Below are positions 25,165 through 45,701 of a DNA stretch of 64,000 nt, piece after piece; within the stretch, counting starts at the first letter, position 1, and the number at the start of each line of letters is the position of its first letter. Both the position numbers and the translations under genes were made by a program. The notes under the pieces were generated by a model. That model had not been told where the DNA came from and made no database searches. It saw only the letters and a list, made by a program, of their open reading frames with translations. Origin of the DNA: Spongiivirga citrea (GTDB lineage: Bacteria > Bacteroidota > Bacteroidia > Flavobacteriales > Flavobacteriaceae). The DNA lies in NCBI RefSeq assembly GCF_010671565.1, contig NZ_JAABOQ010000005.1, positions 248,001-312,000 on the forward strand, written 5' to 3'.

Positions 25165-25953
25165 ATGAGTAATCAAAGACGAAACCGACCTAATAGAAAA
25201 GGAAACATGCCGAAACCAGGTGCGCAGAAAAAGAAGGTTTCTAACCCAAATGAAATGCGATTAAACAAATACATTGCCAACGCCGGTATTTGTTCAAGAC
25301 GTGATGCCGATATGCATATTCAAATTGGCAGCGTTACGGTAAATGGTCAGGTGATTACCGAAATGGGGTATAAGGTAAAGCTAACCGATGAAGTTCGCTT
25401 TGATGGTGCTCGAATTAATCCAGAAAAACCACACTATATTCTGCTAAACAAACCCAAGGGATTTTTGGTAACGACAAAACAAGATGAATCAAAATCTGTA
25501 TTCGACTTAGTTAAAAATGTAGTTAGCGAAAAAACGATACCTGTGGGCAAGTTAGAAAAACAGGGAATGGGATTACTTCTTTTAACCAATGATGGGGATC
25601 TTTCTAAAAAACTTAATAGCAATAATCATAAGATAAGAGTGATTTATCAGGTGAGCCTTGATAAACCTTTAAAAAATGAGGATTTAGAAAAGATAAAAGA
25701 AGGAATCAATATACGTGGTAAAAAAACATCAGTAGTTGATATATCCTATATCGATGACAAACCACATACTGAAGTTGGTATTCATGTATATACTGCTAAA
25801 GGAGAATTGGTTCATAATATTTTTAACCATCTAGATTATAAAATAACATTGTTAGACCGCGTTTCTTACGGTGGACTTACCAAAAAAGATCTACCTCGTG
25901 GTAAATATCGTACTTTAACAGAGCTAGAGGTTAGTAATTTGAAAATGCTGTAG
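25165..25953 (+). CDS. RsuA/RluB-family pseudouridine-synthase-like protein with substituted catalytic Asp
   Basis: An N-terminal S4 RNA-binding domain (EMRLNKYIANAGICSRRDADMHI) precedes a pseudouridine synthase fold with YILLNKPKGFLVT and LLLLTNDGDLSKKL. In active enzymes the catalytic motif is GRLDxxxxGLLL; here it reads GKLEKQGMGLLL, so the essential Asp is Glu and the Arg is Lys. The later NREVRR-type motif is also replaced (KGELVHNIFNHL). The C-terminal LTKKDLPRGKYRTLTE is normal. It probably no longer isomerises uridine, or does so unusually. The start at 25165 follows a promoter at 25121-25151. Confidence 0.85.
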   Translation: MSNQRRNRPNRKGNMPKPGAQKKKVSNPNEMRLNKYIANAGICSRRDADMHIQIGSVTVNGQVITEMGYKVKLTDEVRFDGARINPEKPHYILLNKPKGFLVTTKQDESKSVFDLVKNVVSEKTIPVGKLEKQGMGLLLLTNDGDLSKKLNSNNHKIRVIYQVSLDKPLKNEDLEKIKEGINIRGKKTSVVDISYIDDKPHTEVGIHVYTAKGELVHNIFNHLDYKITLLDRVSYGGLTKKDLPRGKYRTLTELEVSNLKML

Positions 25954-27376
25954 TTTCTATTTTTCGGGTAGTCTTAAAAAACACTTCCCAAATAAAGAAA
26001 CCATAAACAATGATATATTCAGCACCCACAAACCAAAGATTTTCTTTAAAGTTATCATTAGCATAAGCGGTATAGCTGAAAATAACCACGAAGCTCCATA
26101 CTAGCGGGAAACGATATTTTGTAAAGACACTTAAAATCAACAATGTAGCTACATACCAAGGATGCACGGTGGTAGAAATAAAGAAGTAGCAACTTAGTGC
26201 TAACAACATTCCCGTAATCAGATTTTTCATGCTGATGTTATTTCTAACAAATGTGATTAGCAAAACAATTGCTATTATAATAGGGGGAATGTACTTACCG
26301 ATAATCTTTATTTCATTGTATCCTCGAAATGCGTATCCAATTTCTCTAGCGATATAGTACAAGCTCGCATTAAACTCAAAATTGCTAAACCAAAGCCTAA
26401 TTGTTTGCTGGTAATTACTGATAAATTCTGATGAAAAAAATGGGATAAATAAAGCGATAATGGTCATTAGGATTATCAAATAAAAACCAACAAGTGAAGT
26501 TAGTCGTTTTAAAAAACTCCCTTCTCCTTGAGGAGAAGGGTTGGGGATGAGGTGTTTCTTGCTAAATGGGTTTTTAAGTGTGTCGAGAACCTTTTGTTGC
26601 GTAAAAAACTGAAAGAAAACAGGAAGCAATATCAACGGAATAAGCTTGACAGATATAGAAGCGGCAATTGCGATTCCCGCCCAAATCCATTTTTTGTTAT
26701 GTAATAGATATAACCCCAAAATAAGAAAGAAGATCATCACTCCTTCAAAATGAAGGTTTCCTGTGAGTTCGATAATAATAAAGGGATTTAATGCGTACCA
26801 AAAAATGCGATCTACAGGAATATTTAATTTCTCAAGTAATTTTTTCCCTATCAGGATGGTTCCGATATCGGCTGCTATGATCAATATTCTTAAGATGACT
26901 GTAGCCCCAACTACGCTTTTACCTGCTAGCAATCCAGCAATTGCAAAACACAATTGATTAATGGGAGGGTAGTTGGTGTAATTTCGTGAACTTAAACTTC
27001 CCATGCCGTTAAATAATTCCTGCGCATCTGCGATAGGTGCGGTTCCTGTCGCTATCAACTCTTTTGGTAGATATAAATAGGGATTGTAGCCCGCGACAAG
27101 CACTCTACCGTCCCAAATAAAGCGATAAAAGTCTTGTGATAAATTGGGTGTGGCTGCCAGAAATACTAAACGCAGTAAAATGGCAAAACCTAGGAGTAGT
27201 TTAAAGTCGACTTTAGCTGCTTGTAATATTTTATAAAAGAAGACAAATAATGCTGTGTACAAGCTAAATAGCTTGACAAGATCAGATCGCTCTAGATCAT
27301 AAGCAAAAACTACATAAAACAGCACCGAAAGTAGTGCATAGAGAATAGGAAGTTTATGCAACCTCCACAACTTCAT
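25931..27376 (-). CDS. GT-C family polyprenol-linked mannosyltransferase-like membrane protein
   Basis: A polytopic membrane protein of 481 aa with about 11-12 helices. The first extracytoplasmic loop carries PNLSQDFYRFIWDGRVLVAG, the acidic GT-C motif, followed by YNPYLYLP. Such enzymes use a polyprenyl-phosphate sugar donor. Between two membrane segments (about residues 273-287) it contains LIPNPSPQGEGS, encoded by an inserted dispersed repeat (26517-26554). Its start codon overlaps the stop of the upstream GT2 gene by 1 nt, and its 3' end overlaps the convergent pseudouridine-synthase-like gene by 23 nt. The exact sugar and acceptor are unknown. Confidence 0.85.
   Translation of the reverse strand: MKLWRLHKLPILYALLSVLFYVVFAYDLERSDLVKLFSLYTALFVFFYKILQAAKVDFKLLLGFAILLRLVFLAATPNLSQDFYRFIWDGRVLVAGYNPYLYLPKELIATGTAPIADAQELFNGMGSLSSRNYTNYPPINQLCFAIAGLLAGKSVVGATVILRILIIAADIGTILIGKKLLEKLNIPVDRIFWYALNPFIIIELTGNLHFEGVMIFFLILGLYLLHNKKWIWAGIAIAASISVKLIPLILLPVFFQFFTQQKVLDTLKNPFSKKHLIPNPSPQGEGSFLKRLTSLVGFYLIILMTIIALFIPFFSSEFISNYQQTIRLWFSNFEFNASLYYIAREIGYAFRGYNEIKIIGKYIPPIIIAIVLLITFVRNNISMKNLITGMLLALSCYFFISTTVHPWYVATLLILSVFTKYRFPLVWSFVVIFSYTAYANDNFKENLWFVGAEYIIVYGFFIWEVFFKTTRKIETTAFSNY
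26517..26554 (-). repeat. Dispersed palindromic repeat, copy 4 (in frame inside the GT-C gene)
   Basis: CTCCCTTCTCCTTGAGGAGAAGGG followed by TTGGGGATGAGGTG belongs to the family seen at 4165, 4250, 7001 and 38054. It is in frame within the GT-C coding sequence and encodes LIPNPSPQGEGS without disrupting the protein. Confidence 0.85.
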
Positions 27377-28917
27377 TAGGCCTTAGATGTAATCGATTTA
27401 AAGAATACATAACCGAAACCTATAAACAACATTAAATGAAATGGGAATAATCCAAAATCATAATGAAGACTAGGATCTAGTTTATCTTCACCAATGAAAG
27501 CGACCAAGTATGAGCTTATCATACCAAAGGCGAAGTAAAGTGCTAAGGCACCTTCAATAATCACATTAGCCGATGGTCGTTTACGAAGGTATTTGTTTCC
27601 TTTCCATGAATCCGTTAAGTTTTTGATATTGAATTTTGGTGTTCGAACGAACTCACTTCGTTTGCGAATATGCCCTTCAATTACAGCAATAGAGTTGTGT
27701 AAAGAAAAGCCCATTGCTACCGAGAAGAAGGTAAAGAACATCTGTATATATTCAATAAAACGGCTAAAACCACCCCCACCTTTAATATTTTTATACATCA
27801 CCCAATAACAAATAAAGAAGATGATTGTGCTAATAATAAAGAAACTCATCGCAATAAAATAGCCCTGTAAATCAGCAAAATAATTTTTTACATATAGCAT
27901 TGGGATACTTAAAACCGCAACGATAAATACGTTTAAGAACATGGTGCTGTTTAGCAAGTGTAAAATGCCATGTACTTTTGTTTTAAATGAGATATTTTTC
28001 GAGTGAATTACCTCGCGAAGCATCTTTTGAAAGTTCTCTGCTCCACCCTTATTCCAACGGAATTGCTGCGTGCGTGCTGCACTAATTACTACGGGTAATT
28101 CGGCTGGAGTTTCAACATCTTCAAGATATTTAAACTTCCAGTTATTAAGTTGAGCACGGTAACTAAGATCAAGATCTTCAGTAAGTGTATCACCTTGCCA
28201 GTTGCCTGCGTCAATAATACATTCTTTTCTCCAGATACCTGCTGTACCATTAAAGTTGATAAAATGGCCTTGGCTATTTCTACCTACTTGCTCTAGTGTG
28301 AAATGTGCATCTAGAGCGAATGCTTGTACTTTGGTAAGCAGTGAATATTCGCGATTAATATGAGACCAGCGGGTTTGTACAACACCAATTTCAGGATCTT
28401 TAAAATGAGGTACTGTGCGCTTTAACCAATCCTCTTCAGGTAGGAAATCGGCATCAAAAATGGCAACATACTCACCTTTAGCAGTAATTAAGCCTTCTTT
28501 TAATGCTCCAGCTTTAAAACCTTCACGATTGGTGCGTTGTATATGTTGAATATCGAGACCTTGTTTTTGTAATTCAGCAACTTGATCAGCCGCAATTTTT
28601 ACCGCTTCATCATCAGTACTATCATCTAATACCTGAATCTCAAGCTTGTCTTTCGGATAATCTATTTTGGCAATGTTTTGAAGTAATCGTTCTGTTACAT
28701 ACAGCTCATTAAAAAGAGGCAACTGAATGGTTACAATCGGCACTTCTTCCTTATTGGCAAGGTCGAATTTTTCGCCTTTGTCTTCCTTCTTTTTAGAACG
28801 CAAATAATTGAACAACAGATTGAGTTGTGCCAATGCATAACAAAAGATTAGTATTAATGATATTAAGTAGATCACCAATAGGAGGAAACTAATCGAATAT
28901 ATGGTGTCGTCTGACAT
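27376..28917 (-). CDS. Membrane GT2 glycosyltransferase, cellulose-synthase-like
   Basis: A 513-residue processive-type GT2. One N-terminal transmembrane helix precedes a catalytic domain with VTIQLPLFNELYVTERLL, IQVLDDSTDDEAV, AIFDADFLPEEDWL (DxD) and LTEDLDLSYRAQLNNWKF, then QQFRWNKGG (the Q/RxxRW motif), and four to five C-terminal helices. It resembles bacterial glucomannan/cellulose synthase-like (CslA-type) enzymes. It is coupled by 1-nt overlaps to the GT2 gene upstream and the GT-C gene downstream. The product polymer or glycolipid is not predictable from sequence. Confidence 0.9.
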   Translation of the reverse strand: MSDDTIYSISFLLLVIYLISLILIFCYALAQLNLLFNYLRSKKKEDKGEKFDLANKEEVPIVTIQLPLFNELYVTERLLQNIAKIDYPKDKLEIQVLDDSTDDEAVKIAADQVAELQKQGLDIQHIQRTNREGFKAGALKEGLITAKGEYVAIFDADFLPEEDWLKRTVPHFKDPEIGVVQTRWSHINREYSLLTKVQAFALDAHFTLEQVGRNSQGHFINFNGTAGIWRKECIIDAGNWQGDTLTEDLDLSYRAQLNNWKFKYLEDVETPAELPVVISAARTQQFRWNKGGAENFQKMLREVIHSKNISFKTKVHGILHLLNSTMFLNVFIVAVLSIPMLYVKNYFADLQGYFIAMSFFIISTIIFFICYWVMYKNIKGGGGFSRFIEYIQMFFTFFSVAMGFSLHNSIAVIEGHIRKRSEFVRTPKFNIKNLTDSWKGNKYLRKRPSANVIIEGALALYFAFGMISSYLVAFIGEDKLDPSLHYDFGLFPFHLMLFIGFGYVFFKSITSKA

Positions 28918-29606
28918 TATTTTAAACTGTATTTAAAGATCCAACCCAGGATTTTTACGCCTGCAAATATAGCACCTTTTATGGTTCCTGAAACTTTTGA
29001 GACTCCTATTCGTCTTTTATATCGCACAGGCACTTCAACATAGCTTAGTTTTTGCTTCAGCGCCTTTAATTGCATCTCTACGGTCCATCCGTATGTTTTA
29101 TCCTCCATTTGCAGCGCTATCAATTTATCATATTTAATTGCGCGAAACGGCCCAAGGTCCGTAAACCGGGCCCTAAACAAGATTTTCATTAAAAAAGTAG
29201 CAAGCCAATTGCCAAAATGTTGTTGTGGAGTCATCGACCCCTTTTCTTGTAATGTTTTTTTTCGTGCACCAATTACAAAATCTATATCATCATCAATAAT
29301 AGGAGCAACTATTTTATCCAACTCTTCTGGATAATCAGAATAGTCTCCATCAATAAATACGAGAATATCGGGTTGGTTAGACTGTTCTGCGATATATTGC
29401 ATCCCTTTTAGGCATGCATAGCCATAGCCTTTGTTGTTTTCTGTAAGCACTGTCGCCCCAGCTTTCTCTGCATTAGCAACCGTATCATCTGTCGAAGCAT
29501 TGTTTACCACAATTACTTCATTAACATGATTAGGAATTTCGTTTATAACGCTTCCAATTGAGTCAGCTTCATTATATGCAGGAATAATGACTTTAATATG
29601 TGTCAT
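28917..29606 (-). CDS. GT2 glycosyltransferase, dolichyl/polyprenyl-phosphate mannose synthase-like
   Basis: A soluble GT2 of 229 aa with VIIPAYNEADSIGSVINEI at the N-terminus, VVNNASTDDTV, and FIDGDYSDYPEELDKI carrying the metal-binding acidic motif. RARFTDLGPFRAIKYDKL and the C-terminal YKRRIGVSKVSG match DPM1-type polyprenyl-phosphate sugar synthases without membrane helices. Its likely role is to charge a polyprenyl phosphate with sugar for the GT-C enzyme two genes downstream. It overlaps the preceding YwqK-like gene by 4 nt and the next GT2 gene by 1 nt, so all four are one transcript. Confidence 0.88.
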   Translation of the reverse strand: MTHIKVIIPAYNEADSIGSVINEIPNHVNEVIVVNNASTDDTVANAEKAGATVLTENNKGYGYACLKGMQYIAEQSNQPDILVFIDGDYSDYPEELDKIVAPIIDDDIDFVIGARKKTLQEKGSMTPQQHFGNWLATFLMKILFRARFTDLGPFRAIKYDKLIALQMEDKTYGWTVEMQLKALKQKLSYVEVPVRYKRRIGVSKVSGTIKGAIFAGVKILGWIFKYSLK

Positions 29607-31699: not shown

Positions 31700-33289
31700 T
31701 TATTTATTATTAACCAAGTCCATTAAATCTACGTCGTTACCTAACAACACTTGAGTTGGATTTATGCGACCCGCTTCAGGACCATTTTCTAATTTTAATA
31801 CACCTCTAGGGCAAACTGCAGAACAAACACCACAACCCACACAACTAGATCGAATGATATTCTCTCCTTTTTGAGCATAGGCGCGCACATCGATTCCTTG
31901 TTCGCAATATGTAGAGCAGTTTCCACATGAAATACATTGTCCGCCGTTCGTTGTAATTCTAAAACGAGATTTAAAACGCTGCACGAATCCTAAGTAAGCT
32001 GCTAAAGGGCAACCAAAACGACACCATACCCTGTTTCCGAATATGGGATAAAACCCAGTTCCGATCACACCGGCAAATACGGCACCAATTAATAAACTAT
32101 AAGTATTCATTACGGCCTGCACTTTAATTCCTAATACAGTTCTTGTTTCTGCAAAAAAGCCATATAATGTCATCGCTGTCATCAATATTGCAAAGACTAA
32201 GACAGCGTGTATTAGCCAGCGTTCTACTTTCCAAGAGAAAAGCGATTTGCTAGAGTGTTGACGATACGGATCTCCGAGTGTTTCAGCTAAACCGCCGCAA
32301 CCACATACCCAGCTGCAATACCATCTTTTTCCGAAAAAATAGACCATTACCGGTACTATTACTAAGGTTAAAACAATTCCCCATACCAAAATAAATAGAC
32401 CTAACCCACCTCCATCAATCAGCTCTTTCAAATTCCACGAGAAAAAGAAGTCATAATCTAATGGAAATGCATTTTTAAAATCATACCCTTTGTTATAACT
32501 ACCTTGAAGTCTTCCCATTAATTCAGGAATCAAAAAAGCAAACACTATTTGGAAAAATAACACCGAAGTTGTTCTTACAACTTGGTACATATTATGACGA
32601 TACTTAATATACATTCTAACCGCCATTACGGTCATTACTGTACAATACATAAAGCCATATACAAACCAATGCCCTGCAGGATTTCCGCTTAATGTTTTGC
32701 TAATAGGATCTACTAAATAGGTCCAGTTTACTGCATATTGAGGTGCAAAGTATAATACCAGGTAAAAACTAACCAGAAATATAAATACTAGCCAAGCAAT
32801 CCAGCCTCTATTGGTAGCACTTTCAAGATAAATACCATTATTCTTAATCCCTTTTCTGCCAAGTAGAATGACATTAGGTAAAATAAACATGAGTGCTCCT
32901 AGAATACCCAGTCCGAAAGTGAGCAACCACATAATACCTTTATTGTTTGTTATAAAGCCAGAGCCAGCGGGTTTTCCAAGCGCAGCTGCCATATCACGTG
33001 GTTTGCTGAAAATGCGTTTACCCCATTCTTTATTTTTGATATGTTGTGCATTTGCAGTTTCCAAAGCTTGTGCAATAACCGGAGATAAAGCAAACATGCC
33101 ATTAAACTCTTTTCCTACTACATCTTTATTAATTGCATCGATAAACAATTCACTTTTGATATTATTGTTTTTGACGTATTCATCAAAAGTCGATTGCTCT
33201 AATTTAAATGTACCGACAAATACTACTGCCGTGAATATTGATAAGCCTGCTAAGAATATAACAAGGCCGATATTTTTAATTACTTTCAT
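31700..33289 (-). CDS. NapH/NosR-like membrane 4Fe-4S protein
   Basis: A 529-residue membrane protein with an N-terminal anchor and about six further helices. Cytoplasmic or membrane-interface cysteines occur as YCSWVCGCGGLAE and WCRFGCPLAAYLG (NapH/NosR-type pairs). Two ferredoxin-like 4Fe-4S motifs follow at the C-terminus, CISCGNCSTYC and CVGCGVCSAVCP. Such proteins move electrons from quinol or a reductase. Its 3' partner 12 nt upstream on the transcript is an FAD/NAD(P) oxidoreductase, so the pair probably forms an electron-transfer module. The terminal acceptor is unknown; nos, nap or nrf genes are not in the window. Confidence 0.87.
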   Translation of the reverse strand: MKVIKNIGLVIFLAGLSIFTAVVFVGTFKLEQSTFDEYVKNNNIKSELFIDAINKDVVGKEFNGMFALSPVIAQALETANAQHIKNKEWGKRIFSKPRDMAAALGKPAGSGFITNNKGIMWLLTFGLGILGALMFILPNVILLGRKGIKNNGIYLESATNRGWIAWLVFIFLVSFYLVLYFAPQYAVNWTYLVDPISKTLSGNPAGHWFVYGFMYCTVMTVMAVRMYIKYRHNMYQVVRTTSVLFFQIVFAFLIPELMGRLQGSYNKGYDFKNAFPLDYDFFFSWNLKELIDGGGLGLFILVWGIVLTLVIVPVMVYFFGKRWYCSWVCGCGGLAETLGDPYRQHSSKSLFSWKVERWLIHAVLVFAILMTAMTLYGFFAETRTVLGIKVQAVMNTYSLLIGAVFAGVIGTGFYPIFGNRVWCRFGCPLAAYLGFVQRFKSRFRITTNGGQCISCGNCSTYCEQGIDVRAYAQKGENIIRSSCVGCGVCSAVCPRGVLKLENGPEAGRINPTQVLLGNDVDLMDLVNNK

Positions 33290-33300
33290 TTTTCTTTTTG

Positions 33301-34647
33301 TTAGGCGTTGCTAAAAATTCTTTTCCAACTCTTTTTCTTGACCTGGATATTAGTACCGTTTTCGGCATTAAATTGTGAAACTATTTCCTTTTCATATTGT
33401 GAGTAAAATTCCGGATCAAAATTGGCATCCTTTAAATGCTCCATAACATAATTCACGTCTCTTTTTTCAGTGAGCCAGCGATCAAATATTTCATGACGCA
33501 TTCTAATCCCGAATGTATTAATGCCAACAAATTCTTTGGTGTCTTTGTTAAAAGCGACTGTAATGCATTTGTCATCATCTTTATGTATCCAATGAAAATT
33601 TGCATCACAATCAGGACAAGCTCTTGTGCTAAATACCCAACCATAAGTTTGATATTCAATATCAAAAAACTTAGCACTATTAAACCAATGTCCTGGTTTA
33701 TACTCTAATCTATTACCACAAATGGTCTGGGCTACTGTTTCACCCATCATTCGGCCAGTATACCAAACAGCTTCAATAGGGCGACGATTTCCAATAGGTT
33801 CATGTTGCTCAGCACAATCGCCAATAGCATATATGTTTGGAATATTGGTTTCAAGATGGCGATTTACCTTAATACCGCGACCTAATTCGATACCACTTTC
33901 TTTTAAGAAGTCAATATTTGGAGATACTCCAGGAGTAAGTCCGACGATATCACACTCAATGGTATCTCCTTTGTCAGTAGTAACAGCCCTAGCTTTTCCG
34001 TTTTCATCTGCTAAAATTTCAACAAGATTGGTGCTTAATCGTAAGTCAATATGGTTTCGCTCTATTTCTCTATTTATCATACCCGATTCGCCATCCGGTA
34101 ATACACCATTCCAAAAACTTTCTTCACGTACTAGAAAAGTGACCGGAATATTCCTTGAATGAAACATCTCTGCCATTTCAATACCAATTAAACCACCACC
34201 GACTATAACCGCTCTTTTGCAAACCTTGTTGTTTGGGGCGTATTGCTCCATTAAATCAACATCCTGTTTTGCATACAAGCCTTGTACACCATCAAGATCT
34301 TGACCAGGCCAACCAAACTTATTGGGTTTAGAACCAACAGCTAGAATGAGTTTGTCATAGCTCATTGTTGAGCCATCAGCAAAAACCAATTGATTGTTTT
34401 GATGGTCTACAGTTTGTACAAATGCGTTCTTAAGTTCGATTCGGTTCTTTTTCCAGAACCAATCTTCATAAGGCTTGGTATGTTCGTACTTCATATGTCC
34501 CATATAAATGTACATGAGCGCGGTACGAGAAAAGAAATGATCGGTTTCTGCCGATATTATTGTAATTCTCTTATCTGATAATTTCCGTATATGTCTAGCC
34601 GCCGCAACGCCAGAAATACCATTACCAATGATTACAATGTGTTCCAT
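33301..34647 (-). CDS. FAD/NAD(P)-dependent oxidoreductase
   Basis: A pyridine nucleotide-disulfide-type flavoprotein of 448 aa: FAD-binding VIIGNGISGVAAARHI at the N-terminus, NAD(P)-binding RAVIVGGGLIGIEMAE near 147-160, and IYAIGDCAEQ binding FAD near 272. It resembles rubredoxin/nitrite reductase large-subunit-like reductases. Unusually, the C-terminal part carries ACPDCDANFHW, a CxxC pair that could be redox-active or metal-binding. It precedes the NapH-like gene by 12 nt on the same transcript and likely feeds electrons to or from it. Confidence 0.88.
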   Translation of the reverse strand: MEHIVIIGNGISGVAAARHIRKLSDKRITIISAETDHFFSRTALMYIYMGHMKYEHTKPYEDWFWKKNRIELKNAFVQTVDHQNNQLVFADGSTMSYDKLILAVGSKPNKFGWPGQDLDGVQGLYAKQDVDLMEQYAPNNKVCKRAVIVGGGLIGIEMAEMFHSRNIPVTFLVREESFWNGVLPDGESGMINREIERNHIDLRLSTNLVEILADENGKARAVTTDKGDTIECDIVGLTPGVSPNIDFLKESGIELGRGIKVNRHLETNIPNIYAIGDCAEQHEPIGNRRPIEAVWYTGRMMGETVAQTICGNRLEYKPGHWFNSAKFFDIEYQTYGWVFSTRACPDCDANFHWIHKDDDKCITVAFNKDTKEFVGINTFGIRMRHEIFDRWLTEKRDVNYVMEHLKDANFDPEFYSQYEKEIVSQFNAENGTNIQVKKKSWKRIFSNA

Positions 34648-34919: not shown

Positions 34920-35633
34920 ATGAAACTATATAAACTTTTAATAATAGGTATGCTAGTAAGTACTACTGGTATCGCTCAAAATACAGATGCCTTTTTCACC
35001 AAGGCAGATACCTTCTTTGGTAAGCATGTGACTAATGGCAAGGTGAATTACAAAGCAATTAAGGCAGATCCAGCTGATTTAAATGAGCTCGTAGAGCTCG
35101 CAAAGGGAATTACGGTAAGTAAAAGTGACGCCAAAACATACCAAGCTTTTTGGATTAACGGATACAATCTTTCCGTTATAAATGGAATAATAAAAAAATA
35201 TCCAACAAAGTCACCTCTAAATATTAATGGCTTTTTTGATAAGACAAAACATGATATAGGGGGTAAGCAGATCACATTAAATGATATTGAAAACAAATTG
35301 CTAAGAGGTAATTTCAAATCAGAACCACGCTTTCACTTTGTATTAGTATGTGCCGGTTTAGGATGTCCTCCTATTATAAATGAAGCATATACACCTGCAA
35401 AACTGGAAGCGCAATTACAACGTCAGACAGAAATTGCATTAAACAATCCATCCTTCATAAAAGTAAAGGGTAAAAAAGTACAGATCTCTCAAATTTTTGA
35501 ATGGTACAAAGGCGACTTTACCCAAAATGGATCAGAGGTAGATTACATCAATAAATTTAGAAAAGAACCAATTGATACAAAGGCTAGAATTTCATACTAT
35601 CCTTACGATTGGAAACTGAATGATACCAAATAA
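34920..35633 (+). CDS. DUF547 secreted protein
   Basis: A signal peptide (MKLYKLLIIGMLVSTTGIAQ) precedes a complete DUF547 domain: YQAFWINGYNLSVINGII, LNDIENKLLRGNF, FHFVLVCAGLGCPPI with the conserved CxxxxCP, and the C-terminal YYPYDWKLND. DUF547 proteins are periplasmic or exported and of unknown activity, though the invariant Cys and His suggest a hydrolase-like site. It begins a co-directional set with a barrel protein (78 nt later) and an Omp85-like protein. A paralogue with an acidic N-terminal extension lies at 44802-45701. Confidence 0.9.
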   Translation: MKLYKLLIIGMLVSTTGIAQNTDAFFTKADTFFGKHVTNGKVNYKAIKADPADLNELVELAKGITVSKSDAKTYQAFWINGYNLSVINGIIKKYPTKSPLNINGFFDKTKHDIGGKQITLNDIENKLLRGNFKSEPRFHFVLVCAGLGCPPIINEAYTPAKLEAQLQRQTEIALNNPSFIKVKGKKVQISQIFEWYKGDFTQNGSEVDYINKFRKEPIDTKARISYYPYDWKLNDTK

Positions 35634-35711
35634 AAAATCAATTAAAACACTTTATAAACAACTCCGGCCTTAGTTGAAAAATTGGACTAGGGTAGGGCAA
35701 ATACAATTAAA

Positions 35712-36608
35712 ATGAAACGATTACACAAAATACTAGCACTAAGTTTATTATTAGCAACATCGTTTGCTTTTGGTCAAGATGACACAGATAATGATGATGA
35801 TCAAGGATCGGTAATTCAAACACTAACACCGTCGAAGCTTATTGCTAAAGGACAATATGACATTAAATGGTTTAATAATTTATATACAGAAACTCGGGAT
35901 CTTTTTGGACCTGATGGAGCGGAAAGAGATATCCCGCGAAATACATTTTTTACCTCTACAGTAGAAGCCTATACAGGAGTGTCAGAAAACAAACGAGTCA
36001 ATTTAGGGGTTATTCTTGAGTTTAGATCGAACGTAATCGGAGGTAGAGATGCCTTGGATGTATTCAAATTCGATGGAGAATCTGGAAGTGCGCGTAGCGG
36101 ATTTACATCTATTGCGCCATCTGTCAAGTTTGTACCATTTAAAAATGTGGGTAACTTCTCTATTCAGTCGTCATTATTTATCCCTTTAGTAGATAATGAA
36201 GTAGAACAAGGTGTCTTCCTAGATCAAAACGGATTTATTTGGCAAAACCGTTTCTTTTACGATTACACATTCCCTGGAAATAAATGGCAAATTTTTACTG
36301 AAATCAATTCTGAAGCGAACTTTGGTAAGGAAGAAGATAGTTTTGCAAATAACAGTTTACGTTTGACTCCTGGAGTATTCTTAAGTTACTTTCCAAGTTC
36401 GAAGTTTACGGTGTTGGGTCTAGTACAACATTCACAATTAATCGATTTAGGGAATGACTTTTCACAAGACTTTACAGCAGTTGGTGGTGGTGCGAAATAC
36501 CAACTTACCAACGAACTAAATATAGAGGCTTTATATACCAATTTTGTAAGAGGTACTGATACTGGTTTAGGACAAACCTTCAACTTAGGGTTGAGAGCTG
36601 TCTTTTAG
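35712..36608 (+). CDS. Predicted outer membrane beta-barrel protein, unknown function
   Basis: The signal peptide (MKRLHKILALSLLLATSFAFGQ) is followed by an acidic DDTDNDDDQG stretch and then alternating amphipathic beta strands through residue 298, ending in an aromatic residue (LGLRAVF), the usual outer membrane C-terminus. No homologue is recognised. Its gene lies 78 nt after the DUF547 gene and is followed by a strong terminator (36629-36672) directly before the Omp85-like gene. A transporter or scaffold role is a guess. Confidence 0.75.
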   Translation: MKRLHKILALSLLLATSFAFGQDDTDNDDDQGSVIQTLTPSKLIAKGQYDIKWFNNLYTETRDLFGPDGAERDIPRNTFFTSTVEAYTGVSENKRVNLGVILEFRSNVIGGRDALDVFKFDGESGSARSGFTSIAPSVKFVPFKNVGNFSIQSSLFIPLVDNEVEQGVFLDQNGFIWQNRFFYDYTFPGNKWQIFTEINSEANFGKEEDSFANNSLRLTPGVFLSYFPSSKFTVLGLVQHSQLIDLGNDFSQDFTAVGGGAKYQLTNELNIEALYTNFVRGTDTGLGQTFNLGLRAVF

Positions 36609-36628
36609 AATAAAATATGAATTAGCTG

Positions 36629-36672
36629 GCAGGATAGTATATGAAATAACATAAACTATCCTGCTTTTTTTT
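36629..36672 (+). terminator. Rho-independent terminator immediately before the Omp85-like gene
   Basis: A perfect 10-bp stem, GCAGGATAGT / ACTATCCTGC, has a 16-nt loop and a run of eight T residues. It ends 7 nt before the ATG at 36680, so it can act as an attenuator of the next gene. Confidence 0.85.
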
Positions 36673-36679
36673 GATTGTT

Positions 36680-37957
36680 ATGAAAAGATTGATTGTTATA
36701 ATGCTGCTGTTTTGCGCTTCAATTACTACTGCGCAAGAGGCCAGTATCACCAATATAAATATTGAAGGACTAAAGCGGACTGATGAAGGTTTTCTTAGAA
36801 GATTGATAAAAGTAAAGCCAGCATCTATGTACGATTCTATTAAGATTGCTACTGATGTTGAAAAGCTAAATCGACTTCCGGGTATTGCAAAAGCGACCTC
36901 TAAATTGGAAAAAGATGCAAGTGGTAATTATCAACTTACCTATGAAATTGTTGAGGCGTTTACCATAATACCGGGAGTGCGAATAGCAACTGATAACAAT
37001 GACGAATTCTCATACAGACTATCAGCTTTTGAGTTTAATTTATTTGGAAAAAACCAGTTAATAGGTGGTTTCTATCAAAACGATGAGTTCAACTCGTATG
37101 GTTTCTTTTGGGAAGCCCCCTACCTATTTACAAACAAATTTGGTTTTGGAGTCAATTATCAGAATAATGTCAATCAAGAACCTGTGTTTTTTCCTGAACA
37201 GGAGTTGAATTATCGATTTGATAGTAAGGCTTTTGAAGTCTTGTTTACTTATGAATTTAATTTTTATCACAATGCGCAAATAGGTGCCATCATTTCTAAA
37301 GAAGAATACTCTTTTTTACCAGAACAAAGTGAAGGCGACCTTCCAGCGGATAAACCGGCAAATTTGAGCGCAGACCGTATTACTTTTCGAGGAGAATATG
37401 AATATAATGACATAGATATCGATTACCAATATGTTTCTGGTTTTAGAACCCTGTTAGATGTTCGTTTGGTATCTGGTGATGAAAGCGAAGCATTCTTAGA
37501 TAGCTTTTTTATTGGCCGAAATGATTTTGAATATTTTCAACGTGTAGGAGAAAAAGGAAACTGGGCAAACAGACTTCGTGTTGCCTACGCTTCGAATAAT
37601 GATAATCCGTTCGCGCCTTTTACATTAGATAATCAACTTAATATTCGTGGCGTGGGTAATACTGTCGATCGCGGTACTGCTGCACTTACCTTAAATACGG
37701 AATACAGACATACATTTATTGAAAAAGGTTGGTTTGTACTTCAAGGCAATGCATTTATCGATGCAGGAACATGGCGAAATCCAGGTCAAGATATCTCGCA
37801 ATTATTTGACGGTACATCAACTAGATTATATCCAGGTCTTGGCGTTCGGTTTATTCATAAGCGCATTTTTAATGCCGTCTTTCGGTTAGATTATGGTTTT
37901 GGTGTTGGTGATGATGCAACACAAGGATTAGTTTTTGGTATTGGGCAGTATTTCTAA
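36680..37957 (+). CDS. Short Omp85-like protein (BamA/TamA family), paralogue 1
   Basis: The signal peptide (MKRLIVIMLLFCASITTAQ) precedes one POTRA-like domain (about residues 20-95, INIEGLKRTDEGFLRRLI) and a beta-barrel of about 330 residues ending in FGIGQYF. The loop-6 segment NIRGVGNTVDRGTAALTL corresponds to the RGF/Y signature of Omp85. Full BamA has five POTRAs; this has one, so it is probably a specialised translocon or insertase. The start is the ATG at 36680, not the TTG at 36671, which lies in the terminator T-run. A close paralogue is at 39991-41256, with GH113 and lipoprotein genes between. Confidence 0.85.
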   Translation: MKRLIVIMLLFCASITTAQEASITNINIEGLKRTDEGFLRRLIKVKPASMYDSIKIATDVEKLNRLPGIAKATSKLEKDASGNYQLTYEIVEAFTIIPGVRIATDNNDEFSYRLSAFEFNLFGKNQLIGGFYQNDEFNSYGFFWEAPYLFTNKFGFGVNYQNNVNQEPVFFPEQELNYRFDSKAFEVLFTYEFNFYHNAQIGAIISKEEYSFLPEQSEGDLPADKPANLSADRITFRGEYEYNDIDIDYQYVSGFRTLLDVRLVSGDESEAFLDSFFIGRNDFEYFQRVGEKGNWANRLRVAYASNNDNPFAPFTLDNQLNIRGVGNTVDRGTAALTLNTEYRHTFIEKGWFVLQGNAFIDAGTWRNPGQDISQLFDGTSTRLYPGLGVRFIHKRIFNAVFRLDYGFGVGDDATQGLVFGIGQYF

Positions 37958-38053
37958 AGATTGAAGTAAGAGTCAAGAAGCAAGAAAAAAGACCAAAGAG
38001 AAGAGAAGGCAGAAGCTCGTTTCTGTATTAAGCTAAATGATGTTTAAATTTAT

Positions 38054-38090
38054 TCCCTCTCCTAGGGGAGAGGGCTAGGGTGAGGGGTTT
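38054..38090 (+). repeat. Dispersed palindromic repeat, copy 5
   Basis: The core TCCCTCTCCTAGGGGAGAGGG and tail CTAGGGTGAGGGG lie in the 299-nt gap between the Omp85-like and GH113-like genes. The rest of the gap (37958-38256) is AT-rich, with no gene that I can support. Confidence 0.75.
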
Positions 38091-38256
38091 CAACTCGACA
38101 ATCTTCATTCAAAATATTGTTATGCAAAATGCTTACTGCAAACTGTCCCTATACTACAGTTTCTCTTTAATCTTGTTTCTATTTTCTAGCAGCGCAGCGG
38201 TCTTTTTTTAACACATATTTAGAAAGGGTTTTTAAAATGCATGTTAAATTAGCAAC

Positions 38257-39264
38257 ATGCAGAGATTCCTTTTACTCGTTTTTATTGTATTTCACTTAAT
38301 GTCTTGTGAAGCACAAAAAGAAAAAATAAATGGCATTAGTTTCGTTGGCGGACCTAATGTCGTGACTGAAAAACAAATTCAACCTGTACTTAATGTCAAT
38401 GCCAATTGGGTGTGTTTAATGCCATTTGGTTTTATGCGAAGTATTGATGGTACTAGCGTAGTACATAATACAGAAAGACAATGGTGGGGCGAAAAAAGAC
38501 TTGGCGTTGGTAAGACTGCCAATCTTTATAAAAAAGAAGGCGTAAAAATCATGATCAAGCCGCAAATTTGGGTTCGAAATGGTGAATTTACGGGTACCAT
38601 TACCATGAAAAGTGAAGAAGATTGGCTTAAATTTGAAAAGTCCTACGAAGCTTTTATTATGGAATATGCTGATCTGGCGGCCGAATTGGAAGCCGAGGTT
38701 TTATGCATTGGGACAGAATTGAACAAATTTGTTAGTGCCCGACCGAAATTTTGGAGCAGTTTAATCGACAAAATAAGAAGTGTCTATAAAGGAGAACTTA
38801 CGTACGCTGAAAATTGGGATACTTTTGCTGATGTTCCTTTTTGGAATGAGCTTGATTATATAGGTGTAGATGCATATTTTCCGCTATGTGAAAAACAAAC
38901 ACCAACCATGGAAACTTTAAAAGCTGGTTGGAAAACTCACAAGCCTAAAATAAAAGCACTACATGAAAAAGTAGATAAGCCAGTTTTATTTACAGAGTAT
39001 GGATATCGCAGTGTGGATTACTCTGGTAAACGCCCGTGGGATTATAGCCGGGAAATGCAAGATGTTAATCTTGTAGCCCAAGAAAACGCTTTAAAAGCCA
39101 TTTATGACGAGTTTTGGTCAGAAGATTGGTTTGCTGGCGGCTTCCTATGGAAATGGTTTGACAAACATGAAAAGGTAGGTGGCGTTGAGAATGCTCAATT
39201 TACACCGCAAAATAAACCAGCAGAAGAGCTGATACGGAAGTTTTATAAAAACGGAGCATATTAA
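38257..39264 (+). CDS. GH113-like glycoside hydrolase lipoprotein
   Basis: A lipoprotein signal (MQRFLLLVFIVFHLMSC, Cys17) precedes a TIM-barrel hydrolase resembling GH113 beta-mannanases. The likely acid/base Glu154 is in LCIGTELNKF and the nucleophile Glu247 in FTEYGYRS; NANWVCLMPFGFMR and GVDAYFPL match the family. Predicted substrates are beta-mannose-containing glycans, inferred from the family only. It lies between two Omp85-like paralogues; its stop codon overlaps a downstream lipoprotein frame that begins at a non-AUG codon. Confidence 0.85.
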   Translation: MQRFLLLVFIVFHLMSCEAQKEKINGISFVGGPNVVTEKQIQPVLNVNANWVCLMPFGFMRSIDGTSVVHNTERQWWGEKRLGVGKTANLYKKEGVKIMIKPQIWVRNGEFTGTITMKSEEDWLKFEKSYEAFIMEYADLAAELEAEVLCIGTELNKFVSARPKFWSSLIDKIRSVYKGELTYAENWDTFADVPFWNELDYIGVDAYFPLCEKQTPTMETLKAGWKTHKPKIKALHEKVDKPVLFTEYGYRSVDYSGKRPWDYSREMQDVNLVAQENALKAIYDEFWSEDWFAGGFLWKWFDKHEKVGGVENAQFTPQNKPAEELIRKFYKNGAY

Positions 39265-39991
39265 AAAATTAGTCATCATATTATCAATTATCATGTTGGG
39301 CTGTTCGCCCGATGTTGAGGTCGCATTTGACAATTTAAGTGCTGACATCGAAGCCTCAGGATTAACCGTAGTTAGGGATAATGTGATTGCTTGTGCTGCA
39401 AGCAGCCCTGATGATCCAAATGAAGTATTTGTTTTTGCTTATTTAAGACCAGGTGCTACTAATCTAAAATTATATGCATCCATTGATACTAGTATTGAAG
39501 ATAAAAATGACTTTAGTAATTATCAATTTACTGGGGAAGGTGGTATAAATGACTTTTTCAATGGATTTCTGAAACAGTATATTCTCGAGTTACAAGAAGA
39601 AATTTGGGTTATTGTAAGTTTTGAAGAAGACGGACAAATTCATACATCAACACCAATACGATTAAAGCAGTTAGAAAAACCAACTGTTTGGAGTGATCAG
39701 ATCACGGTCGATCAATCAGAATCATTAATGCCCGAATTTTCATGGGATGTAATTAATGACTCAACCATTTATTTTCATGTGGTTTCCGATATAAGTGATA
39801 ATGCGTTATCAGGAACCTACACAACAGATACTACCTTTCAATACTATAAACTAGACAACGTTGTACTTAATGTAACAATTGGGACACCTCCAGCACTTAT
39901 ACCAAACGATCCATATCAAATTACGGTAATGGGTGTTAGTGGTGACAATTGGGTAGGCGCAGTACAGCAAAAGGTATTTACCGCCGAATAA
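39260..39991 (+). CDS. Lipoprotein of unknown function, probable AUU start
   Basis: The first ATG (39293) would give MLGCSPDV, which lacks the basic and hydrophobic signal segment. Reading back in frame gives IKKLVIILSIIMLGCS, a textbook lipoprotein signal with Cys15, beginning at an ATT (39260) that overlaps the GH113 stop codon. No ATG, GTG or TTG exists between that point and an in-frame TGA upstream. The mature protein (about 228 aa) is beta-rich and acidic; no family is recognised. Its TAA overlaps the ATG of the second Omp85-like gene (TAATG). The start is an inference. Confidence 0.7.
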   Translation: MKKLVIILSIIMLGCSPDVEVAFDNLSADIEASGLTVVRDNVIACAASSPDDPNEVFVFAYLRPGATNLKLYASIDTSIEDKNDFSNYQFTGEGGINDFFNGFLKQYILELQEEIWVIVSFEEDGQIHTSTPIRLKQLEKPTVWSDQITVDQSESLMPEFSWDVINDSTIYFHVVSDISDNALSGTYTTDTTFQYYKLDNVVLNVTIGTPPALIPNDPYQITVMGVSGDNWVGAVQQKVFTAE

Positions 39992-41256
39992 TGAGATTAA
40001 AAACCCTACTTGCTTTGCTTTTTATCGGGTATTGCTTTATTGCCACCGCACAGGAGGGTAATACTATTCGTGAGCTAGTTTTTGAGGGAAATAAAAAAAC
40101 CAAAACATCTTTTCTTGAAAAACTAATTAAGGTAAAAGTTGGGCATAAAATTGATTCGACTAAGCTAGATGCCGATGTCCTTAAACTTAGGCGTCTTGAT
40201 GGAATTGTACATGCAACTTATGAAATAGAAAATACGCTTGCTGGTGCTAAAGTGACCTATGAAGTAAACGAGAATTTTACCATAATTCCCAACCTGAATT
40301 TATGGACCGTAAATGATCAAGAAGTTGCTTATCGAATTGGTTTAACCGACTTTAATTTTTTGGGACGAAACATTTCTATTGGTGGTTTTTATCAAAATAA
40401 CGGCTTCAATTCCTACGGACTTAGTTTTAGAGCCCCCTACTTATTTACAAATAAAATTGGATTAGAATTAAACCATTTAAACTGGTCGAGTAGAGAACCC
40501 TTGTTTTTTGAAAACGGATCAGCCCAATATAAATACACCAATAAATCGTTTGAAGCTCTTGGTTTATATGAGCTAAATTTTAATAATAATTTTAAAGTAG
40601 GTCTTAACTATTTTTCGGAGACTTATAATTACTTGGAAGGGCAAACCAATCCACGAGTGCCGAGGTCCTTAAAGATCGATAAGTGGTTAGTTAAACTAAA
40701 TTATGAGTTTAATAATGTGGTATATGATTACTATCATCTTTCCGGAATTAAGAATCAGGTTTTCCTGCAATTTGTAACTTCTACGAATGAGTTTCAAGAA
40801 GATTTTGTAATCGCTTGGAATGACTTTTTCTACTATAAACGAATCGGTAAAAAAGGAAACTGGGCAAACCGTTTTCGCTTTGGTGTGGCTAGCAATGAAG
40901 ACAGTCCGTTTGCGCCATTTTCAGTTGATAATAATTTAAACATTCGCGGTGTAGGTAATATTATCGATCGAGGTACTGCTTCATTAGTTTTAAATACGGA
41001 GTACCGACAAACTTTAATCGAGAAGGGCTGGTTTATTTTACAAGGTAATGCTTTTGTCGACGCTGGCTCTTGGCGTAACCCTGGAGGTGATTTTAGTGAT
41101 TTTTGGGATGTAGATAACGTTCGTGTTTATCCAGGTGTTGGACTCAGATTCATTCACAAACGCATCTACAATGCCATTTTTCGTATTGACTATGGTTATG
41201 GTATTACCGAAGGTGCATCAAGAGGTATTGTATTTGGTATCGGGCAATATTTCTAA
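39991..41256 (+). CDS. Short Omp85-like protein (BamA/TamA family), paralogue 2
   Basis: The signal peptide MRLKTLLALLFIGYCFIATAQ is followed by a single POTRA-like domain (IRELVFEGNKKTKTSFLEKL) and a barrel ending FGIGQYF. Its C-terminal half is very similar to paralogue 1 (NIRGVGNIIDRGTASLVL; EKGWFILQGNAFVDAGSW). I start at the ATG at 39991, which overlaps the lipoprotein stop; the longer frame to 39949 lies within that gene. It converges on the YceI gene with a 4-nt overlap. Function is inferred to be outer membrane insertion or translocation of a partner. Confidence 0.85.
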   Translation: MRLKTLLALLFIGYCFIATAQEGNTIRELVFEGNKKTKTSFLEKLIKVKVGHKIDSTKLDADVLKLRRLDGIVHATYEIENTLAGAKVTYEVNENFTIIPNLNLWTVNDQEVAYRIGLTDFNFLGRNISIGGFYQNNGFNSYGLSFRAPYLFTNKIGLELNHLNWSSREPLFFENGSAQYKYTNKSFEALGLYELNFNNNFKVGLNYFSETYNYLEGQTNPRVPRSLKIDKWLVKLNYEFNNVVYDYYHLSGIKNQVFLQFVTSTNEFQEDFVIAWNDFFYYKRIGKKGNWANRFRFGVASNEDSPFAPFSVDNNLNIRGVGNIIDRGTASLVLNTEYRQTLIEKGWFILQGNAFVDAGSWRNPGGDFSDFWDVDNVRVYPGVGLRFIHKRIYNAIFRIDYGYGITEGASRGIVFGIGQYF

Positions 41257-44041: not shown

Positions 44042-44809
44042 CTAGGAAGCAATATTTCGTTTGTAATACTGATAAAGTTGGTTAGGAGAAGCACCGAAAA
44101 ACTTCTTTAAATGTATGACCGTGAAGTGATACTGCAATCGCCAAGTTCCGTTGGCATCATACCGTCTTGATGAGGTAGTCACATAATCTGGAATGACGGT
44201 GAATTCTCCTTGATCATAAAGTCTCCCAATAAATTCAGAGTCCTCATAAATTATATAGTCCTCATTAAAGCCATTAAGTGTATCAAACAACTCCCTTTTA
44301 ATAAATAAGGATTGATCTCCCCCACGACAACCTCTTAAATTAAAACGAGTAAACCATTGACTAAATTTGAGTACAAGGTGATCGTTGTCAAACTTCATAC
44401 GAAAACAACCTGCACTTGCATTGTCATTTGCCGCATCAATAATTGCTTTGTCAAAGTTTCTAGGTGGGATCGAATCTGCATGTAAGAAATACAAAAGCTC
44501 ACCTTTAGCCTTTTTAGCACCAACATTCATCTGGCGTGCTCGACCTTTTTTTGAATGTAATAATATTATATCGAGACCCTTTTCTTGAGTTAATCGTTTA
44601 ATTATTTCCTGCGACCCATCCGTACTTCCTCCATCCACGATTAAAATCTCTTTAATATTTGTTGCAGAAGAGTTTTCATACAAATACTCGAGAAGCTGGA
44701 CAATATTGTCCGCTTCGTTGAGTATCGGGATGATGATGCTTATTTTCAATTTTATTTTTTTTGTGATTTGGAATTTGTTTTTTTGAAAATTGCCTTCAGG
44801 CCTATTCAT
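44042..44809 (-). CDS. TIGR04283 family arsenosugar-type glycosyltransferase
   Basis: A GT2-family enzyme that co-occurs with ArsM and ArsS in arsenosugar clusters. Visible blocks: SIIIPILNEADNIVQLLEYL, ILIVDGGSTDGSQEI, LLYFLHADSIPP, and GCRGGDQSLFIKRELF. Two starts are possible: the ATG at 44809, overlapping the DUF547 stop, or a TTG at 44749 directly before KISIIIPILNE. The first gives 255 aa with an atypical basic N-terminus, so the second may be right. It is separated from the rest of the arsenosugar genes by the plus-strand island at 45820-49578. The acceptor is unknown. Confidence 0.88.
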   Translation of the reverse strand: MNRPEGNFQKNKFQITKKIKLKISIIIPILNEADNIVQLLEYLYENSSATNIKEILIVDGGSTDGSQEIIKRLTQEKGLDIILLHSKKGRARQMNVGAKKAKGELLYFLHADSIPPRNFDKAIIDAANDNASAGCFRMKFDNDHLVLKFSQWFTRFNLRGCRGGDQSLFIKRELFDTLNGFNEDYIIYEDSEFIGRLYDQGEFTVIPDYVTTSSRRYDANGTWRLQYHFTVIHLKKFFGASPNQLYQYYKRNIAS

Positions 44810-45701
44810 TCAAATTCCAATCGTAATCCATATAGCTTAGCTTGGCTTTATTTGAAATTGCCACTTCACTATACTTATTTAAAAAGTCTATTAAGTTGCC
44901 ATCTTTTTTGAAATCTTTACTGAACCACTTGAATATCTTAGAAACTTTTATACTATTTGCGGTTAACTCATTTCTAGATGTGTCAGATAAAAATACTTTT
45001 GTGGCCGTTGTAAGTTGCTCTTCCAAAGTGTCAGCTTTAAAGGCTTCGTTAAAAAGTTGCGGACAAGAAACCGATGCGCAGTTAATAGCAAAATGAATAC
45101 GCGGTTCATCCATTTTACGAAGAATTTGATGTTCTATCTCATTTAAATTATACCATTTTTTGCCGAGTTTAAAGAAACGCGCTCCCCAAGGATCTTTAAT
45201 GTCTTTAATACTTTTTGTGGGATAATTATCGATGATGAGCTTTATAGTAAATGCGTTATAGGCGTTTATCCAATAGGCTAATACATCTTCACGTTTCCAA
45301 TCATCTTTGGGCATATTATTAGATAGTGACGTTAAATATGTTTTTAGCTCAGTGCGATCGGCTTTAAAGGCTTTGTAGTTTACATTACCTTGGTCGGTAA
45401 CGTGCTTTTTTAGCAAGGCATCAAAAACATCATGATCAAAGGCAGTTTCGATTGCTTCTAAGCTTGTTTCTGTTACTTCAATATCATTGTCTTCAGGCAT
45501 CTCTTCAACAACATCTTCAATAACCTCCTCAACAACTTCTTCCTTCATTTCTTCTTGTACCTCTGGTTCTTCCTGAACAGTTTCGACTATTTCAACCACA
45601 GTTTCTTCATTTGTTGCTCTGGTGTCCACTACTTTCTTTGAACTTCCGCATGCAGAAAGCATTATGGCTATAAGTATAATTTGGGCTATTTTCATTTTCA
45701 A
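44802..45701 (-). CDS. DUF547 lipoprotein with acidic linker
   Basis: Signal MKMKIAQIILIAIMLSAC gives a lipoprotein at Cys18. A highly acidic Glu/Val-rich linker spans about residues 30-85, followed by the DUF547 domain: LAYWINAYNAFTIKLII, YNLNEIEHQILRKMDEP, IHFAINCASVSCPQLF and YMDYDWNLNE. The key Cys and Trp positions match the paralogue at 34920. Its stop overlaps the start of the TIGR04283 glycosyltransferase gene, suggesting co-production. The acidic linker probably extends the domain away from the membrane. Function is unknown. Confidence 0.9.
   Translation of the reverse strand: MKMKIAQIILIAIMLSACGSSKKVVDTRATNEETVVEIVETVQEEPEVQEEMKEEVVEEVIEDVVEEMPEDNDIEVTETSLEAIETAFDHDVFDALLKKHVTDQGNVNYKAFKADRTELKTYLTSLSNNMPKDDWKREDVLAYWINAYNAFTIKLIIDNYPTKSIKDIKDPWGARFFKLGKKWYNLNEIEHQILRKMDEPRIHFAINCASVSCPQLFNEAFKADTLEEQLTTATKVFLSDTSRNELTANSIKVSKIFKWFSKDFKKDGNLIDFLNKYSEVAISNKAKLSYMDYDWNLNE

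Follow-up and report, generated by a model that had tools for sequence, protein, structure and literature searches.

What two small Omp85-like proteins do among lipoprotein genes is the question raised by one locus of Spongiivirga citrea, which we analyzed within a 64,000-nucleotide stretch of contig NZ_JAABOQ010000005.1 (positions 248,001 to 312,000; hereafter the window). The original prediction described six co-directional genes here as an envelope module, suggestive of dedicated surface delivery or glycan handling. Open reading frames and HMM searches recovered all six on the + strand, spanning 34920-41256, most with domain or fold evidence: in order, a secreted DUF547 protein (DUF547a), an outer-membrane barrel (BRL), Omp85-like 1, a GH113-like lipoprotein, a lipoprotein of unknown family (LIPO), and Omp85-like 2. 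Across other genomes, 33 loci combine the same six genes, which supports the module itself; the exact order does not carry over, since the Omp85 pair lies in tandem at the end of those loci, as the two genes do in all 36 other loci having two Omp85 genes, the barrel, and GH113. Copy 1 sits between the barrel and GH113 in this window only, and the order seen here is a rearrangement.

We detected a single POTRA domain (PF07244) in both Omp85-like 1 (type a; ATG 36680 to 37957, + strand; 1e-5) and Omp85-like 2 (type b, the copy kept in position; ATG 39991 to 41256, + strand; 7.6e-7), the count coming from the HMM for both copies and from an AlphaFold (AF2) model for copy 1 only. That model places one POTRA before a 16-strand C-terminal barrel of the BamA/TamA type (pLDDT 85.7, pTM 0.81), and fold comparison gave Z 29.2 to BamA 9ccg (26-29 across BamA structures), ~24.5 to TamA, and ~22 to FhaC. 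A phmmer search of the PDB returned no real match for Omp85 or DUF547, leaving fold comparison as the only informative route, and a search of viral contigs found no relatives. R323 and G324 of the loop-6 R-G motif were invariant across 55 Omp85-like sequences; together with the POTRA and the barrel modeled for copy 1, this motif identifies members of the Omp85 superfamily. The predicted one-POTRA architecture therefore held, with the copy 1 model showing an Omp85-type barrel and its POTRA rather than an unrelated barrel.

Several characterized classes were excluded. Canonical BamA carries five POTRAs, against one here, and TIGR03303 scored 46.7 and 33.7 bits against a cutoff of 297; TamL, with a lipidated N-terminus and three POTRAs, is likewise out, as the signal ends in ...TTAQ/E without a lipobox cysteine (judged by eye). 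Membership in TpsB/FhaC was rejected because PF07244 was the sole POTRA-type match up to E 1, with no POTRA_2/TpsB HMM, and no TpsA-like partner was recognized among the neighboring genes. Heinz and Lithgow (2014) described a BamA-like Omp85 subfamily with 1-3 POTRAs that is always found beside BamA (PMC4104836), and both copies resemble it: each has one PF07244 POTRA, is distinct from BamA, shares the BamA-type barrel modeled for copy 1, and lies in a genome with larger Omp85 proteins, namely two further large PF01103 proteins in frames of 895 and 867 aa. The accessible part of that report names no partner or locus for the subfamily, whereas here the proteins accompany a DUF547-channel and an arsenosugar/glycosyltransferase supercluster.

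The two copies had been read as products of duplication on the strength of near-identical loop-6 and C-terminal segments. Paralogy by duplication stands, with full-length identity of 48-50%, but these segments are no sign of it: copies 1 and 2 are 78% identical in loop 6 and 68% in the C-terminus, close to the mean values for a-versus-b comparisons across the family (72% and 71%), which marks them as conserved parts of the family rather than traces of a recent event. With OMPa clade support of 1.0 in the tree, this rules out a recent local duplication; the a/b split is old. The types also differ in company. The barrel accompanies type b Omp85 in 51 of 52 operon loci and type a alone in 0 of 11 (p 2e-11 without phylogenetic correction) and is carried only by type b loci; type b tracks the DUF547-channel. 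Type a stands alone in 29 loci or occurs with GH113 only. Neighbors of solo type a genes, judged by eye from their N-termini, were mostly housekeeping genes and offered no functional hint. Both Omp85-like proteins could instead be general accessory BamA-like assembly factors serving many outer-membrane proteins, with the neighborhood kept for expression reasons only, as the constant presence of BamA beside the published subfamily (PMC4104836), the 29 solo loci, and the two large PF01103 proteins would allow. We consider this rather unlikely, as type b nearly always adjoins the DUF547-channel, including in three other family-level groups with differing surroundings.

The proposed client is encoded at the start of the operon. 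BRL (35712 to 36608, + strand) was modeled by AF2 as a barrel of 12 strands (pLDDT 84.3, pTM 0.79), the fold of COG4313 and FapF channels, with Z 23.4 to the COG4313 channel 4rl8 and Z 22.0 to FapF; sequence searches gave only a weak PF13505 match, and the barrel profile found no PDB chain. Unlike the COG4313 channel and the amyloid exporter FapF, to which its identity is ~10%, BRL has DUF547 encoded upstream or fused to it, and no amyloid genes were seen. DUF547a (34920 to 35633, + strand; PF04784 2.7e-25) is 38% identical to a second DUF547 protein in the window, DUF547b, and residues N80, Y82, N83, R137, H139, and C144 are 99-100% conserved in 119 DUF547a, DUF547b, and fused proteins. In 7 loci of distant relatives, DUF547 and the barrel form one protein. 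This fusion directly adjoins a single Omp85 in L127-L130, which represent three other family-level groups, mostly amid housekeeping genes, so the DUF547-channel and a one-POTRA Omp85 look like an ancestral two-part cassette. A literature search for DUF547 with arsenosugar or the outer membrane found nothing useful.

The GH113-like lipoprotein (38257 to 39264, + strand; PF22612 153.6 bits, 9e-45) has the TIM barrel and both catalytic Glu residues, which are conserved in alignment with solved PDB mannanases; the catalytic motifs are kept in 53/62 and 58/62 homologues. Available portions of a GH113 study place Bacteroidetes proteins of unknown function in a clade 5 whose members were inactive on all substrates tested, note Bacteroidetes GH113 genes close to GT2 genes, and propose biofilm or storage glycan remodeling (PMC9032380). 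The window's protein shares the phylum, a signal peptide, both Glu residues, and nearby GT2 genes with that clade and probably belongs to it, a placement made by these likenesses rather than from the published tree; the context of Omp85, DUF547-channel, and arsenosugar genes differs from the clade as described in those portions. LIPO, + strand, ends at 39991 and matched nothing in Pfam or NCBIfam. Its in-frame upstream sequence, IKKLVIILSIIMLGC|S, supports a start before 39293, and the probable start is ATT 39260, as the mechanical ATG 39293 would truncate the signal peptide of this lipoprotein N-terminus.

Of the dedicated role first suggested for the locus, the glycan connection survived, whereas surface lipoprotein delivery found no direct support: GH113 N-termini carry no acidic export signal, and Omp85 is widely found without either lipoprotein. 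LIPO homologues do have C-S-S-D-D-D/N-like N-termini, acidic at +4 to +6, but the usual signal-directed export of lipoproteins would explain these residues. Among Omp85 proteins, those of the FhaC and PlpD kinds export a partner or fused domain. The acidic residues of LIPO homologues, as in surface lipoproteins, and the FhaC match in fold comparison would suit a rival reading in which both copies are themselves exporters, TpsB/PlpD-like translocons carrying the lipoproteins or the DUF547 protein through the outer membrane. We regard such exporters as doubtful: the POTRA was matched by PF07244 but by no TpsB model, BamA outranks FhaC as structural match, the fusion partner of DUF547 is another barrel and not Omp85, and LIPO is often missing where Omp85 occurs.

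The operon is flanked, in a conserved arrangement, by an arsenosugar cluster on one side and by glycosyltransferases and a FAD/Fe-S pair on the other, all on the - strand in the window. A FAD/NAD(P)H oxidoreductase (33301 to 34647; PF07992 3.7e-50) is the divergent partner of the operon, followed by a membrane NapH/NosR-like 4Fe-4S protein (31700 to 33289; TIGR02163 5.9e-17, below cutoff, and supercluster linkage), a polyprenyl-phosphate sugar synthase-like GT2 (28917 to 29606; PF00535; AglJ-like 1.3e-34, below cutoff), a PgaC/BcsA-like processive GT2 (GT2p, 27376 to 28917; TIGR03937 6e-34, below cutoff), and an MptB/GT87-like polyprenol-phosphate-dependent transferase (GTC, 25931 to 27376; TIGR03459 1e-13 and PF09594 4e-4, both below cutoff). 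On the other side we found a TIGR04283 arsenosugar-type glycosyltransferase (44042 to 44809; 234 bits versus a cutoff of 182), the DUF547b lipoprotein (44802 to 45701; PF04784 7.6e-27), and an arsenosugar core of ArsM, PNP, TIGR04282, rhodanese, ArsS, and TIGR04169 (49674 to 54174). Here NF038099, TIGR04282, TIGR04167, and TIGR04169 exceeded their NCBIfam cutoffs, rhodanese was identified by PF00581, and PNP was named by sequence and cluster position, not by HMM. ArsM, ArsS, TIGR04282/04283, and TIGR04169 thus occur together, the complete set of known arsenosugar clusters; unlike most ArsS loci outside the family, this one is joined to polyprenyl-phosphate transferases, the FAD/FeS pair, and an outer-membrane module.

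Counted without correction for shared ancestry, TIGR04283 and DUF547b lie within 10 kb in 41/49 operon loci versus 1/31 solo loci, and at least 2 FAD/FeS/GT genes in 45/49 versus 0/31. ArsS, GH113, and Omp85 are confined to genomes carrying an orthologue of the FAD oxidoreductase, while co-occurrence of ArsS with Omp85 within the family is modest (p 0.014). This linkage and co-occurrence would accord with a possible part for the Omp85 operon in the arsenosugar pathway. Arsenosugar cannot be the sole substrate, because G001 retains the operon without ArsS, G018 has ArsS remnants only, and the cassette also occurs in genomes of other classes where no ArsS was found. A phylum-wide link between the FAD/FeS/GT genes and ArsS was also ruled out: outside the family, 19 genomes have ArsS, and only L160 among them shows both FAD and FeS. 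A polysaccharide utilization locus is not favored, as no SusC/D-type genes were recognized in the operon. Retention in G001 and G018, the resemblances of GT2p and GTC, and the remodeling role proposed for GH113 (PMC9032380) would also accord with an arsenic-unrelated envelope system in which GT2, GT-C, GH113, channel, and Omp85 build and export a glycan, mannan-like or otherwise, with the arsenosugar genes simply lying nearby. This is a serious alternative, if somewhat unlikely: in two genomes without Omp85 (L131, L133), GT, FeS, FAD, and arsenosugar genes form one continuous same-direction run, and among 60 relatives ArsS is present in 25/29 genomes with the FAD gene versus 0/31 without it.

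Both the supercluster and the DUF547-channel fusion, missed in the original prediction, favor a channel with its insertase over lipoprotein delivery. We tentatively propose, as a plausible reading, that the locus is the outer-membrane part of a flavobacterial supercluster for an envelope glycoconjugate and that it encodes a private BamA-type insertase for the DUF547-channel. The copy 1 fold, the fusion, the conserved linkage, the co-occurrence, and the history of the paralogues are observed, whereas the insertase role, the client, the substrate, and the transport direction are inferred. Type b Omp85 would fold the channel into the outer membrane and possibly move the DUF547 part too, and the channel would pass a glycoconjugate produced by the adjacent genes, most likely arsenosugar-bearing or a related glycan built by the TIGR04283/TIGR04282 and polyprenyl-phosphate/processive transferases. 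A periplasmic-side GH113 lipoprotein may trim or release this product, LIPO may sit on the cell surface, and type a would be an old paralogue able to work with GH113 alone or solo. Like TamL/TamA-TamB of Bacteroidota (PMC12045153), the proteins have an Omp85 superfamily barrel, but with one POTRA, an apparent non-lipoprotein signal, and no TamB adjoining. The fullest version envisages a new kind of machine in the outer membrane, with a small Omp85 dedicated to assembling one specific DUF547-gated 12-strand channel; in marine Flavobacteriaceae the machine would export or display an arsenosugar-containing glycoconjugate trimmed by the orphan GH113 clade. This version is speculative and on balance improbable.

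New here are the DUF547-channel fusion and the apparent ancestral cassette, the tracking of the channel by type b, the conserved supercluster, and the probable GH113 clade placement. Marine flavobacteria carry a conserved outer-membrane set of one or two mini-BamA proteins, DUF547 with its channel, and a GH113 lipoprotein beside arsenosugar and glycan-synthesis genes, and the supercluster linkage suggests where to seek the role of small BamA-like proteins. Two questions become testable: the substrate of the Bacteroidetes GH113 clade and what small BamA-like proteins assemble. An Omp85 with one client, if real, would be a simple system in which to study barrel insertion. If the arsenosugar link is true, arsenosugar metabolism in marine Flavobacteriaceae would include a stage at the envelope, bearing on arsenic cycling.

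The six co-directional genes predicted from the sequence were all confirmed on the forward strand: DUF547a (34920-35633), a barrel (35712-36608), Omp85-like 1 (type a, most likely starting at ATG 36680 and ending at 37957), GH113 (38257-39264), a lipoprotein, and Omp85-like 2 (type b, most likely starting at ATG 39991 and ending at 41256). The two Omp85-like proteins share 48-50% full-length identity and each contains one PF07244 POTRA domain, though a whole-genome search with PF01103 at E 0.001 reached neither, matching two larger Omp85 proteins instead. An AlphaFold2 model of Omp85-like 1 from a 55-sequence alignment (mean pLDDT 85.7, pTM 0.81) places a beta-alpha-alpha-beta-beta POTRA at residues 22-92, followed by 16 barrel strands at residues 96-421, excluding a barrel without POTRA; given its 50% identity, copy 2 was assumed to fold in the same way. 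The nearest solved structures were BamA (Z 29.2 for Fusobacterium, 26-28 for E. coli), with TamA (about 24.5) next and FhaC (about 22) after it, and these small proteins belong to a BamA-like kind already described in PMC4104836.

The original prediction took shared loop-6 and C-terminal segments as the mark of duplication. Paralogy holds, but the identities between the copies (78% and 68%) resemble the family-wide type a versus b means (72% and 71%), so these are conserved family parts. In a 142-sequence tree, copy 1 sits in the type a clade (support 1.0) and copy 2 groups with the other sequences, those of type b, which branch earlier and whose deeper nodes are weakly supported; the a/b duplication is older than many genera. 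Scanning 84,980 genomes with a profile yielded 561 relatives, and gene neighbourhoods (up to 10 kb flanks) of the best 80, nearly all Flavobacteriaceae according to record titles, contained 49 operon loci. Counting also loci from whole genomes, all six genes occurred in 33 loci in the order DUF547a-barrel-GH113-lipoprotein-Omp85a-Omp85b, and the Omp85 genes were tandem in all 36 loci with two of them plus barrel and GH113. Conservation therefore extends to gene content but not to the exact order predicted, since no other locus compared has copy 1 between barrel and GH113; the window's order is a local rearrangement. We also observed a GGGGAGAGGGCTAGGGTGAGGGG-type repeat at 38050-38095, in the 300-base gap that separates Omp85-like 1, the displaced copy, from GH113, with five genome copies at up to 3 mismatches, each on its contig's forward strand. 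Separately, one locus (L032:7668-8945) carries an apparently decaying Omp85 copy with one in-frame stop and lacks DUF547a and a recognisable barrel.

DUF547 and the barrel form a single polypeptide of 503-555 residues in seven distant loci. Four of these (L127-L130; family-level groups f19, f21, and f59) place the fusion beside one Omp85 without GH113, an arrangement that looks like the ancestral cassette; L130 also has the lipoprotein. Nameable neighbours of these four loci are mostly housekeeping genes (PurE/PurK, peptidyl-prolyl isomerase, and aminotransferase among them). The barrel alone is a predicted 12-strand channel (pLDDT 84.3, pTM 0.79), closest in fold to the COG4313 channel (Z 23.4), followed by the amyloid exporter FapF (22.0) and autotransporter beta domains (18-20). 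Cys144 and His139 are invariant across 119 DUF547 sequences (types a, b, and fused), which is compatible with an enzyme role. Of 52 intact operon loci with type b Omp85, 51 also have the barrel, versus 0 of 11 a-only operon loci, mostly Winogradskyella (p 2e-11, uncorrected for shared ancestry). Type a Omp85 occurs alone in 29 loci, mostly amid housekeeping genes, which fits the rival reading of a general assembly factor. The analysis establishes fold, fusion, linkage, and co-occurrence, and these are read most economically as a channel served by a dedicated insertase, in which type b Omp85 would fold the DUF547-channel, the channel would pass the product of adjacent glycosyltransferase/arsenosugar genes, and GH113 would trim it; insertase role, client, substrate, and transport direction are what we infer. 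Because this reading and its rivals overlap, our confidences in them need not add up to one.

Both GH113 catalytic glutamates align with those of solved mannanases and are kept in most homologues. Phylum and similarity suggest that this GH113 belongs to Bacteroidetes clade 5, for which PMC9032380 reports soluble enzymes all inactive on every substrate tried, rare PUL location, and nearby GT2 genes. For the lipoprotein, the mechanical ATG at 39293 leaves only MLGC. Reading in frame from an ATT at 39260, which overlaps the stop of GH113, yields a complete signal peptide (IKKLVIILSIIMLGC); the gene therefore probably starts at this ATT and is translationally coupled. The acidic export signal described in PMC5080379 is absent from the N-termini of GH113 homologues. 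In the family of the second lipoprotein, by contrast, acidic residues are common at +4 to +6, a pattern that the window's own copy (C-S-P-D-V-E) matches only loosely; the family pattern would suit a translocon role for the Omp85 proteins, one of the rival readings.

The operon lies within a supercluster. To its right is a complete arsenosugar set (TIGR04283, ArsM, TIGR04282, ArsS, and TIGR04169, all above NCBIfam cutoffs) with purine nucleoside phosphorylase (PNP), rhodanese, and a second DUF547 lipoprotein (DUF547b); divergently to its left are an FAD oxidoreductase, a NapH/NosR-like Fe-S membrane protein, polyprenyl-phosphate-sugar-synthase-like and PgaC/BcsA-like GT2s, and an MptB-like transferase, their finer names coming from matches below cutoffs. 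TIGR04283 with DUF547b occurs at 41 of 49 operon loci versus 1 of 31 solo loci. An arsenic-unrelated glycan system is the rival here: direct ArsS-Omp85 association inside Flavobacteriaceae is modest (p 0.014), G001 keeps the operon without ArsS, and G018 has ArsS remnants (G018:C7:79733-80042) although its operon is intact, indicating that the operon outlives arsenosugar synthesis. DUF547 proteins are also recurrent neighbours of ArsS clusters in Bacteroidota where the Omp85 operon is absent (L145, L148, L151, L156, and L164). As far as searches of open-licence literature show, the DUF547-channel partnership, a/b specialisation, and supercluster context are new.

ArsS was present in 25 of 29 genomes with the FAD orthologue versus 0 of 31 without it, and none of these 60 genomes had GH113 or Omp85 without that orthologue. 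In genomes lacking Omp85, the left-hand genes continue into arsenosugar genes in one direction (L131, L133), or FAD and Fe-S genes follow ArsS-TIGR04282-PNP-ArsM (L132). Outside Flavobacteriaceae, ArsS clusters usually contain TIGR04169 and often TIGR04282, TIGR04283, or DUF547, with FAD and Fe-S genes in 1 of 19 genomes; there (L160, distant family f39) they adjoin TIGR04282-ArsS-TIGR04169. Within Flavobacteriaceae, the nearly perfect tracking of ArsS by the FAD oxidoreductase, with its linked NapH/NosR-like Fe-S protein (the two genes together spanning 31700-34647), suggests an unrecognised redox step in that family's arsenosugar metabolism.
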